From: Methanoculleus sp. 7T
GTDB taxonomy: Archaea > Halobacteriota > Methanomicrobia > Methanomicrobiales > Methanoculleaceae
Assembly (NCBI RefSeq): GCF_023195915.1
Contig: NZ_JALPRP010000001.1
Span: forward strand, 186,001-250,000
DNA length: 64,000 nucleotides
Direction of reading: 5' to 3'
Shown here: piece by piece, positions 55,433-64,000 of the stretch
How positions within the stretch are numbered: position 1 is the first letter of the stretch
How the letters are laid out: the number at the start of each line of letters is the position of its first letter
Notes under the pieces: model-generated
Told to the model about the DNA's origin: nothing
The model's input: only the letters and a program-made list of their open reading frames with translations
Database searches by the model: none
Made by a program: the position numbers and the translations under genes

Positions 55433-55804
55433 TCAGGGTGCGCCTGACGCCGTATCCTCCCCGTCGACCACCGCCTGCCGCATCCTCTCGAGGGCATCGA
55501 CGAGGTCTTCGACCTGGTACGGGGTGAGCCCTCCGCTCCGGGAGTCGCCAGGTTCGAGGTGCACGATCTGGAGGAGTGCGTCTTTGAGAACCTCGAGGCG
55601 GCTCTCAGGGGGGAGGATGACTTCGAACCGGTGGAAGATGCGGTCCGGGACGCAGACGAAGTCACCGTGGATGGACGCAAATGAGAGGATCTCGTCTGCA
55701 GCGAGGACATTCCCCTGGTCTACACCGACCTCGAGGACCGCCGGCGAGACCCCGGGGTTAGCGGTGTCCTCTTGTGTAAAACAACGAACGATCTTGATAT
55801 TCGT
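55433..55804 (-). CDS. Hypothetical protein with apparent ACG start codon
   Basis: A coherent 123-codon frame with normal host codon use. The product starts (M/T)NIKIVRCFTQEDTANPGVS and contains GDFVCVPDRIFHRFEVILPP and LTPYQVEDLVDALERMRQAV. It has no ATG, GTG or TTG in frame before codon 100. GGAGGAG (55816-55810) sits 5 bases before ACG at 55804-55802, the distance of a normal start, and a TATA-like ACTATATCC lies about 45 bases upstream. Either ACG is used, a neighbouring ATC is used, or the base is a mutation or sequence error. No known domain is recognised. Confidence 0.65.
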   Translation of the reverse strand, partial: TNIKIVRCFTQEDTANPGVSPAVLEVGVDQGNVLAADEILSFASIHGDFVCVPDRIFHRFEVILPPESRLEVLKDALLQIVHLEPGDSRSGGLTPYQVEDLVDALERMRQAVVDGEDTASGAP

Positions 55805-55920
55805 GGGTGCTCCTCCGGTTTCTGGTGGGATATTCTCTGCGGGAGAGGATATAGTTGTGATGGGGGACGAGGTGACGTGTGGGGGGCCTCAAGGCCGAGG
55901 CCTTCCAACACATCGGGAGG

Positions 55921-61551: not shown

Positions 61552-62115
61552 TCAGGCCGACTTTGCCAGCCGGAGGAACCGCTCGACGACCCACTCGTTC
61601 CTGACCTCGGGATGGAAGAGGACGCCGTAGAGCGGGAGCGAGCGGTGCCGGATCGCCTGGACGCACCTGTCCGAGACGGCGAGGGTCATGAACCCCTCGG
61701 GGACCTGCACGGCGCACTCGTGCAGTGCGTACGCCGCAAAGGTCTCCATCCCGGCAAAGAGGGGGTCGGATGCGGTCACCCGGACGTCGGCCATACCGAT
61801 CTCGCAGCACGGCTCAACGCCGCCGCCGAAGGCCGCCGCAAGGGCCCGCATGCCAGAGGAGATGCCGAGCACCGGGCGTTCGAACGCGGGAAGCCACCGG
61901 AACATCCCGGGGTGCTCAGCGAAACCCGTATCCTTCAGTGCCGTCCCGCAGAGGACCGCCCCGTCCGCGGCCTCGATCTCCGGTGTGCCGACGGCGGCAT
62001 AGTGGCGGACGGCGAACTGCGCCCCGGCCTCACGGAGAACCCGTACGACCGGCTCGACGAACTCGGCACGGGAGAGCGAACCGTCGCGGTAGCAGAGGTC
62101 GACGACAAGAATCAT
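61552..62115 (-). CDS. Class I glutamine amidotransferase-like protein lacking the Cys nucleophile
   Basis: A 187-residue single-domain GATase1 fold. The nucleophile elbow reads VLGISSGMRALAAAF, so Ser86 replaces the catalytic Cys of the normal G-I-C-x-G, while the later His168 and Glu170 (LFHPE) remain. It therefore probably cannot hydrolyse glutamine and may be a regulatory or binding subunit. The ATGA overlap places it directly downstream of Dph6. Possible partners are unknown; sequencing error at the codon is the main alternative. Confidence 0.82.
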   Translation of the reverse strand: MILVVDLCYRDGSLSRAEFVEPVVRVLREAGAQFAVRHYAAVGTPEIEAADGAVLCGTALKDTGFAEHPGMFRWLPAFERPVLGISSGMRALAAAFGGGVEPCCEIGMADVRVTASDPLFAGMETFAAYALHECAVQVPEGFMTLAVSDRCVQAIRHRSLPLYGVLFHPEVRNEWVVERFLRLAKSA

Positions 62116-62792
62116 TTCTCCACCAGCCCCGCCCGCTCGATCTGCAACACGCCGTTGTAGTTCCGGTAGACCCTCGATACCTTCTCAATCGCTATCCGCC
62201 GAGAGAAGAAGGGAGCGTCGATGACGAACGTCTCGAACTCGCCCCCTTCGCCGGTGAGGGTGATCCGGTACTTCCGTGCGGCGTTTCGAAGTTCGTCGAG
62301 GGTGCGGCGGTCGATCTCCCTTCCGAGCCAGGACGCGTCGAAGGGGTAGGAGAAGACCCCCGCGATGATGACTTGGAACCCGGCACCGATGAGTTCCTCC
62401 ATGTAGGTCTCTTGGTCCGCGTGCCAGAGCGGGTTGAAGCACCAGAGGTCCAGTTCGCGGCAGACCCGCTGGACCCTCGTCGCCTGGTAGACCGAGAGGA
62501 TCGCCCCCGTGACGATCCCCTCGATCCCGAACCGCTCCTTGGCGAGGAGGAGAGCCCGCTTCAAGTCTTGGAGTTCCGCCTCCTTCTCGCCCGCCGTCTC
62601 CACCTCCACGAGGGGAAGCCCCGCCGCCTCGGCCTGCAGTGCGGCGAGGCGGATGTTCGGGGTGTGGAACATGTAACTCTCCGGGTTTCGGGAGACGACC
62701 GTGATCAGGCAGGCCACCTCCTCATGCTGCATCGCCTTCCAGCAGGCGAAGAGTGAATCTTTCCCGCCCGAGAAGAGCACGCCGAGTCTCAT
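62112..62792 (-). CDS. dph6: Diphthine-ammonia ligase (Dph6, MJ0570-type)
   Basis: A 226-residue ATP-dependent amidase of the diphthamide pathway, catalysing the last step on elongation factor 2. It carries the PP-loop MRLGVLFSGGKDSLFACWKA and the family blocks HTPNIRLAALQAEA and GEGGEFETFVIDAPFF. Archaeal enzymes of this length lack the C-terminal extension of eukaryotes. ATG at 62792 is preferred over a frame to 62843. Overlaps the GATase-like gene by 4 bases. Confidence 0.9.
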   Translation of the reverse strand: MRLGVLFSGGKDSLFACWKAMQHEEVACLITVVSRNPESYMFHTPNIRLAALQAEAAGLPLVEVETAGEKEAELQDLKRALLLAKERFGIEGIVTGAILSVYQATRVQRVCRELDLWCFNPLWHADQETYMEELIGAGFQVIIAGVFSYPFDASWLGREIDRRTLDELRNAARKYRITLTGEGGEFETFVIDAPFFSRRIAIEKVSRVYRNYNGVLQIERAGLVEK

Positions 62793-62899: not shown

Positions 62900-62923
62900 T
62901 GCTCTCCCCGAACCGGGGAGGCA
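62900..62923 (+). promoter_or_regulatory. Hairpin directly upstream of the ACG-start gene
   Basis: CTCCCCG (62904-62910), loop AAC, CGGGGAG (62914-62920) is a perfect 7-bp stem, extended by TGC/GCA with one bulged T. It ends just 3 bases before the AGGTGA ribosome-binding sequence (62926-62931), and a TATA-like AAGTAGTAAT lies about 40 bases upstream, so it would form in the mRNA leader. Confidence 0.5.
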
Positions 62924-62934
62924 GAAGGTGACCT

Positions 62935-64000
62935 ACGTACAGCATACGGTTCTACCGGATCTACGATATCGGTGAGGAAGTCGACCTTGACGGGCTCGAA
63001 GAGGCGCTTACCGCCGGGGATGCCGTCGGCCCGGGCGATTTTGCCAGGGTCAGGCCGAAGTCGATCTCTATGGAGTCCCCGCCGGTGCTCATCCGGCTTC
63101 CGCCGGTAAATCTGGAGGTCGGCGGGCGCGATCATCGGATGACCGTCGCCGCACGGATATTTGATATCGGCGCCGTCAGCGTCTGCTTGAACCTTGAAGA
63201 CCTCAAAGCGCCCGCGGCGGACCTTCCGGCAACGGCGTTCCGCTTCGCAGGCCAGAGCGGCCTCACCCCGCTCTTCTCGGCATCTCTCAAGAGATTATTG
63301 GAGACACTGGGGCCCATCCTCGGGGACCGCTCCGTCGATCCCGATTTCTTTGAGGATTACACCATCTTCATCGCCGACCGGCCCGCCGAGGCGATCGACC
63401 CCGTCGCCCTCCTCCTCGGGGAGGAGAGGGAGTTCAGTCAGGAGACCCGTGCCGATATCCTCAAAAACTCCCTGAGTTACGGATGCGACGACCTTACCGT
63501 CCTCTCTTGGGATACCGCCCTCCTCATCGGCCCCGAGCCGCCCGGAGACCTCATCGAACTCCTCGAGTTCGCGAACGTCCAGGCGCTGGAGTTCCGGTAC
63601 TACGACCGGGTGCTGACGGAGCAGATGGGGCGGATGTACGATGACATCGAGGCCGTGGATAGGAGGTTCTTCTTCCGTCGGATCGGCCAGTACCATGCCA
63701 TCATGACCCGGCTCATGGAGACGCACGCCGAGATATCGGAGATCACCGAGAAGGTCGATAACCTCATCAAGACGACCAATGACGTCTACTATGCCCGCGT
63801 CTACGGCCATGCCTTAACCGTCCTCCGTATATCGCAGTGGCGTGCGAGCGTCAACCGGCGGATCGACCTGATCCGGCAGAACTACATGATGCTCTCCGAT
63901 GAGGTCAACATACGCCACTCGAACTTCCTCGAGTTCGTCGTCATCCTGCTGATCGCCCTCGAGGTCGTCTTCTTGGTCTGGGAGCAGGCCGGGACGGGGT
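62935..64000 (+). CDS. RMD1/DUF155 family protein, partial, apparent ACG start
   Basis: A window-truncated gene of at least 355 codons. N-terminal (M/T)YSIRFYRIYDIGEEVDLDG, DUF155-type middle and C-terminal helices (YGHALTVLRISQWRASVNRR, then SNFLEFVVILLIALEVVFLV, a membrane helix) match COG1723/RMD1. Only CCT separates an in-frame TGA from ACG at 62935, and AGGTGA sits 3 bases before it, so initiation at ACG (or an internal GTG near 63088 that would lose 50 conserved residues) is implied. Yeast RMD1 relatives sit in mitochondrial membranes; archaeal role unknown. Confidence 0.75.

Follow-up and report, generated by a model that had tools for sequence, protein, structure and literature searches.

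Whether a cellular archaeal gene can begin with ACG is the question raised by the stretch of 64 kb analysed here (the window; bases 186001-250000 of a 2.0-Mb contig in a genome, G000, of 2.6 Mb and 60% GC), in which an earlier, sequence-only reading had placed this codon at the head of two unrelated genes on opposite strands. ACG is not, to our knowledge, a start in NCBI translation table 11 and, lying outside the prokaryotic start-codon table, it leads gene callers to truncate or miss the genes that it opens. The archaeal starts named in reviews are AUG, GUG and UUG (PMC7531240); a survey covering 36 groups of bacteria and archaea and dealing with switches between start codons lists, besides AUG, only GUG, UUG and a few cases of CUG and AUU, and does not mention ACG (PMC5622118). 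Such starts would escape view wherever annotation pipelines never call this codon. An earlier report of an archaeal ACG start was not found in the open-access literature searched.

At the first of the two genes (the focal gene; Table 1), the forward strand runs GGAGGCAGAAGGTGACCT-ACG-TACAGCATACGGTTC, which in frame reads TGA CCT ACG TAC, then 354 open codons, and the frame has a coding base signature across its 355 codons. Three features singled out in the sequence-only reading are borne out: the orthologue alignment has a conserved block opening directly at the ACG at 62935; the TGA two codons upstream is indeed present and, in the window copy (L001), excludes an upstream in-frame start; the AGGTGA is correctly placed, with a 3-nt spacer corresponding to an aligned spacing of 7, compared with 8 for the second gene and a genomic mode of 8. 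After the TGA, ATG, GTG and TTG are absent from the frame until an ATG at 63070, 45 codons in and behind the conserved N-terminal block, so that a downstream GTG, once considered as a competing start, is unlikely to be the true one. Comparison with the ACG-bearing orthologues yields a dN/dS of ~0.2-0.26.

Table 1. Positions within the window of the two ACG-started genes, their initiation signals and the divergent neighbour
Feature	Position	Strand	Remarks
Focal gene, start codon ACG	62935..62937	+	Orthologue column holds ATG/GTG/TTG/ACG
Focal gene, Shine-Dalgarno AGGTGA	62926..62931	+	Pairs with 16S 3' end ...AUCACCUCC
In-frame TGA	62929..62931	+	Two codons 5' of ACG, within the Shine-Dalgarno sequence
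GTG within the Shine-Dalgarno sequence	62928..62930	+	Out of frame in the window; preceded by GGAGG 62917-62921
Focal gene, CDS	62935..63999	+	355 codons counting ACG; stop TGA 64000-64002, just beyond the window end
Gene 2, start codon ACG	55802..55804	-	29/29 orthologues
Gene 2, Shine-Dalgarno GGAGG	55812..55816	-	
Gene 2, CDS	55433..55804	-	ACG + 122 codons + TGA; small alpha/beta protein, no family assigned
Divergent neighbour of focal gene	62112..62792	-	Ordinary ATG start

The alignment of focal orthologues at the start column, suggested earlier as a check, is informative. Named records among the orthologues assign this methane-producing archaeon to Methanomicrobiales, its genus probably being Methanoculleus. 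Orthologues are present in 118 of the 232 genomes of the order, but the 34 further genomes from the genus of the window all lack one; in the 78 copies examined (some duplicated between collections; about 75 orthologues), the column holds ATG in 51, GTG in 11, ACG in 10, TTG in 5 and, in a single broken copy, CTG. ACG occurs in nine distinct species belonging to three families of the order (L001, the window copy, L002, L003, L004, L005, L006, L041, L042 and L032/L054), always with GGTGA upstream. Exactly at this column, sister species of L006 are canonical (GTG in L044-L046, TTG in L237), and L031 has GTG though it lies within the ACG clade; on a 56-row tree of the family, ACG needs four changes and is found in two lineages, with ATG-started lineages between them. 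The spacer from (G)GTGA to the start is 3, 4, 5 or 6 nt according to the species and, since these differences are not multiples of three, it behaves as untranslated sequence. In both L001 and L002 a TGA lies in frame and a canonical alternative start is lacking. Of the 58 residues that never vary and could be written with four or more synonymous codons, only one is encoded by a single codon in all nine copies, as the ACG is. The retention of the triplet in this position by related species suggests that the cells use ACG as a start, probably a weak one.

Gene 2 is a stronger ACG case than the focal gene. Its orthologues, found in most of the genus and in one neighbouring genus, have ACG in all 29 copies, always preceded at a constant distance by GGAGG or a close variant, while the alignments further upstream contain indels of one and two bases, the single-base ones ruling out an upstream coding extension. 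A stop lies in frame 6 to 12 codons upstream in several copies; more than half of the orthologues lack any canonical start back to the upstream stop, and the next canonical codon lies 18 to 107 codons downstream or does not occur at all. Of 11 invariant residues for which four or more synonymous codons exist, none keeps a single codon across the 29 copies; the ACG does. These codon patterns indicate that in both genes ACG is conserved as a codon, beyond the constraint on threonine, and the double occurrence of the ACG start, at 62935 (+) and 55804 (-), stands; its retention in nine species and in 29 of 29 orthologues makes a one-off mutation, already thought less likely, hard to maintain. The possibility that ACG is a trait of the gene 2 paralogue family was considered and rejected, the paralogue at C1:365561 having a canonical GTG start available. 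The gene 2 protein has no family match, and Foldseek returned no significant one.

A third gene with a near-cognate start lies at ~409915 of contig C1 (L186-L212) and encodes what we take, by eye, to be an e-MtaB-like methylthiotransferase; in 26 members from the genus, its start column holds ATC in 14, ATT in 7, ATG in 3, GTG in 1 and ACC in 1, mostly with GGAG at an aligned spacing of 8 to 12. As to the frequency of such starts, the genome-wide search for Shine-Dalgarno-led ACG codons proposed earlier was run on 450 kb as an unbiased scan (Shine-Dalgarno sequence, ACG and a coding frame without a nearby canonical start) and returned exactly two genes, recovering both known cases and adding none. 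A codon-usage gene finder applied to 1.65 Mb (63% of the one genome surveyed) predicted 1,420 genes, 19 of which have no canonical start up to 9 codons beyond the start of the coding signal, few of them by a wide margin; several are apparent fragments or frameshifts, and one is the e-MtaB-like gene. The clear near-cognate cases in these 1.65 Mb are only the focal gene, gene 2 and the e-MtaB-like gene, a count that is too low to the extent that only genes without a nearby canonical codon are visible to the survey. A pairwise scan of Shine-Dalgarno sequence and codon against G029 was discarded for want of stringency, since the DNA upstream is itself conserved among members of the genus. Near-cognate starts thus appear, from these surveys, to be rare in this genome yet conserved gene by gene, which answers in part the question of ACG initiation in this lineage: it seems real in a few genes, each conserved, but is not a general habit.

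Three other frames came to notice. The gene at C1:929064 (-), presumably coding for a P-type-ATPase-like protein (named by eye), has its first canonical start only 15 codons inside the coding region and no obvious near-cognate codon led by a Shine-Dalgarno sequence; the coding frames at C1:1139745 and C1:1463058 seem to begin by a frameshift from a frame that lies just upstream and opens with ATG, and possibly represent sequence errors or recoding.

Position, Shine-Dalgarno sequence, conservation, lack of alternatives and purifying selection on the proteins (dN/dS ~0.15-0.4), all of them read from sequence, argue that ACG very probably serves in Shine-Dalgarno-assisted near-cognate initiation by the ordinary Met-tRNAi, with a probably low output. 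The focal mRNA would carry a leader, whose AGGTGA would pair with the 16S anti-Shine-Dalgarno and so bring the ACG to the P site; there it would be accepted by the ordinary aIF2-GTP-Met-tRNAi complex in spite of a C-A mismatch in the middle position, methionine being the predicted first residue, the protein level would probably be low, and the codon may be kept for low or regulated expression. The same process, with GGAGG and ACG, would operate at gene 2. No special machinery is indicated, since the genome has a single, ordinary, ATG-started aIF1 and its tRNA-Thr(CGU) is an ordinary elongator devoid of initiator features; an initiator-like tRNA with a CGU anticodon was not found in the ~46% of the genome scanned. 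It counts against the ACG reading that in other archaea aIF1 has been reported to destabilise non-AUG complexes and to discriminate against non-canonical starts in vitro (PMC6237735, PMC8211752).

The alternative closest at hand places the true start of the focal gene at the GTG inside AGGTGA (62928), so that ACG would be an internal threonine codon in the relatives and the window copy a frame-shifted, dying gene. In seven of the nine ACG orthologues this GTG, within GGTGA, does lie in frame three codons 5' of the ACG, which for those species alone need not be the start, and a G-rich sequence resembling a Shine-Dalgarno precedes the GTG in L001-L003 and L005; however, five of the seven species with the GTG in frame have no Shine-Dalgarno sequence before it, and spacers of 4 to 7 nt between GGTGA and the start are ordinary genome-wide, which makes the five-nt cases with an in-frame GTG unremarkable. 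In two separate genera (L001 and L002) the GTG does not share the ACG frame, which a TGA closes, and it is out of frame also in L044-L046, whose ACG column holds GTG. Moreover, the two codons between GTG and ACG vary freely whereas the ACG, with only one equal in fixity among the 58 comparable codons, never does; the frame is intact, with a dN/dS of ~0.26 between L001 and L002, rather than decaying; and gene 2 would be left unexplained. A start at this GTG is accordingly judged improbable.

C-to-U editing of the mRNA, converting ACG into AUG as in plant organelles, would account for the recurrence in two genes of ACG rather than of some other near-cognate codon, but it fails for the ATC/ATT start of the e-MtaB-like gene and we know of no archaeal case of such mRNA editing; we consider it very improbable. 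The likeness to plant plastids, in which such editing is known (PMC9845219), is confined to the ACG found at the gene start in the DNA, the ATC and ATT starts being beyond its reach. Initiation at a near-cognate codon just downstream (ATA, codon 4, in the focal gene; ATC, codon 3, in gene 2) is conceivable in principle, given that ATA and ATC can initiate weakly and that ATC and ATT appear to serve in the e-MtaB-like gene; it would, however, bring the Shine-Dalgarno spacing to at least 14, against a mode of 8, and the isoleucine at the place of the focal ATA is conserved in ATG-started orthologues too, making this choice of codon highly improbable. Nothing beyond the oddity of ACG itself speaks for an ATG misread in sequencing, base calling or assembly; the suggested base-calling bias does not survive the recurrence of the codon in 9 and in 29 genomes that were assembled separately, some as a single contig, and the chance of such an error is practically negligible.

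The proposed Shine-Dalgarno-assisted initiation at ACG resembles that at GUG and UUG (and, rarely, CUG and AUU) in being Shine-Dalgarno-led and served by Met-tRNAi, with one mismatch and a weaker start that often goes with a stronger Shine-Dalgarno sequence; it differs from all of these in that the mismatch falls on the middle base. In eukaryotes, ACG acts as a near-cognate start in AAV VP2, Sendai virus C' and yeast ALA1; there Met-tRNAi reads ACG, as proposed here, and the archaeal initiation core (aIF1, aIF1A, aIF2) is related to the eukaryotic one, but scanning and the Kozak context take the place held here by a Shine-Dalgarno sequence and by cross-species conservation in cellular archaeal genes. 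In E. coli infC, a conserved rare AUU start sets expression, with IF3 as the regulator; the likeness of the ACG genes to it lies in the conserved rare near-cognate start. We tentatively propose that Methanomicrobiales may keep a small, evolutionarily stable group of genes opened by near-cognate codons (ACG, AUC/AUU), the output of which would be set by initiation fidelity, for example by the level of aIF1; if true, this would parallel in archaea the near-cognate control of eukaryotes, and the ACG starts described here would be the first conserved ones from archaea. That the starts are conserved across many species and in several families suggests that a mismatch at the middle base is tolerated by archaeal ribosomes if the Shine-Dalgarno sequence is strong, which bears on start-codon selection by aIF1 and aIF2 and on the origin that near-cognate initiation in archaea shares with that in eukaryotes; the conserved ACG genes provide concrete substrates for testing it.

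In G029 the flanks of the focal gene are separated by 93 bp, compared with 1,223 bp in G000, which, together with its absence from the 34 other genomes of the genus, points to either a recent gain or a genus-wide loss. Broken copies of the family were seen in L238 (G231:C68:11546-12512), G060, G098 and G045, the defects being a degenerate tandem copy in which the start column holds CTG, a TAA in frame, a split reading frame and a remnant of 37 residues; given the absence from the genus and the broken or missing copies in several genomes, weak selection on the window copy is conceivable, a further point against the ACG reading.

The family, conserved in Methanomicrobiales and with distant relatives in Bacteriovorax (25-29% identity), lends no support to the RMD1/DUF155 label first given to it: none of 33 members matches Pfam DUF155, and the PF02582 profile finds nothing above its cut-off in this genome or in 247 genomes of the phylum. 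The protein consists of an alpha/beta N-terminal part, long helices and a C-terminal hydrophobic segment, presumably membrane-spanning, an arrangement like that of RMD1/DUF155 (PF02582) and CorA, albeit without a Pfam match. A PDB sequence search with the family gave no match, and Foldseek gave no significant one for the focal protein, the best being CorA, a weak match (E 0.009, TM <0.2). The GGAGG that precedes the out-of-frame GTG (window 62917-62930) is a second Shine-Dalgarno sequence and makes for a possible frame of 15 codons that overlaps the ACG start. The divergent neighbour, which we take by eye to be DPH6/ATP-pyrophosphatase-like (MRLGVLFSGGKDS...), is separated from the focal ACG by a gap of 142 bp, leaving room for a promoter and a leader.
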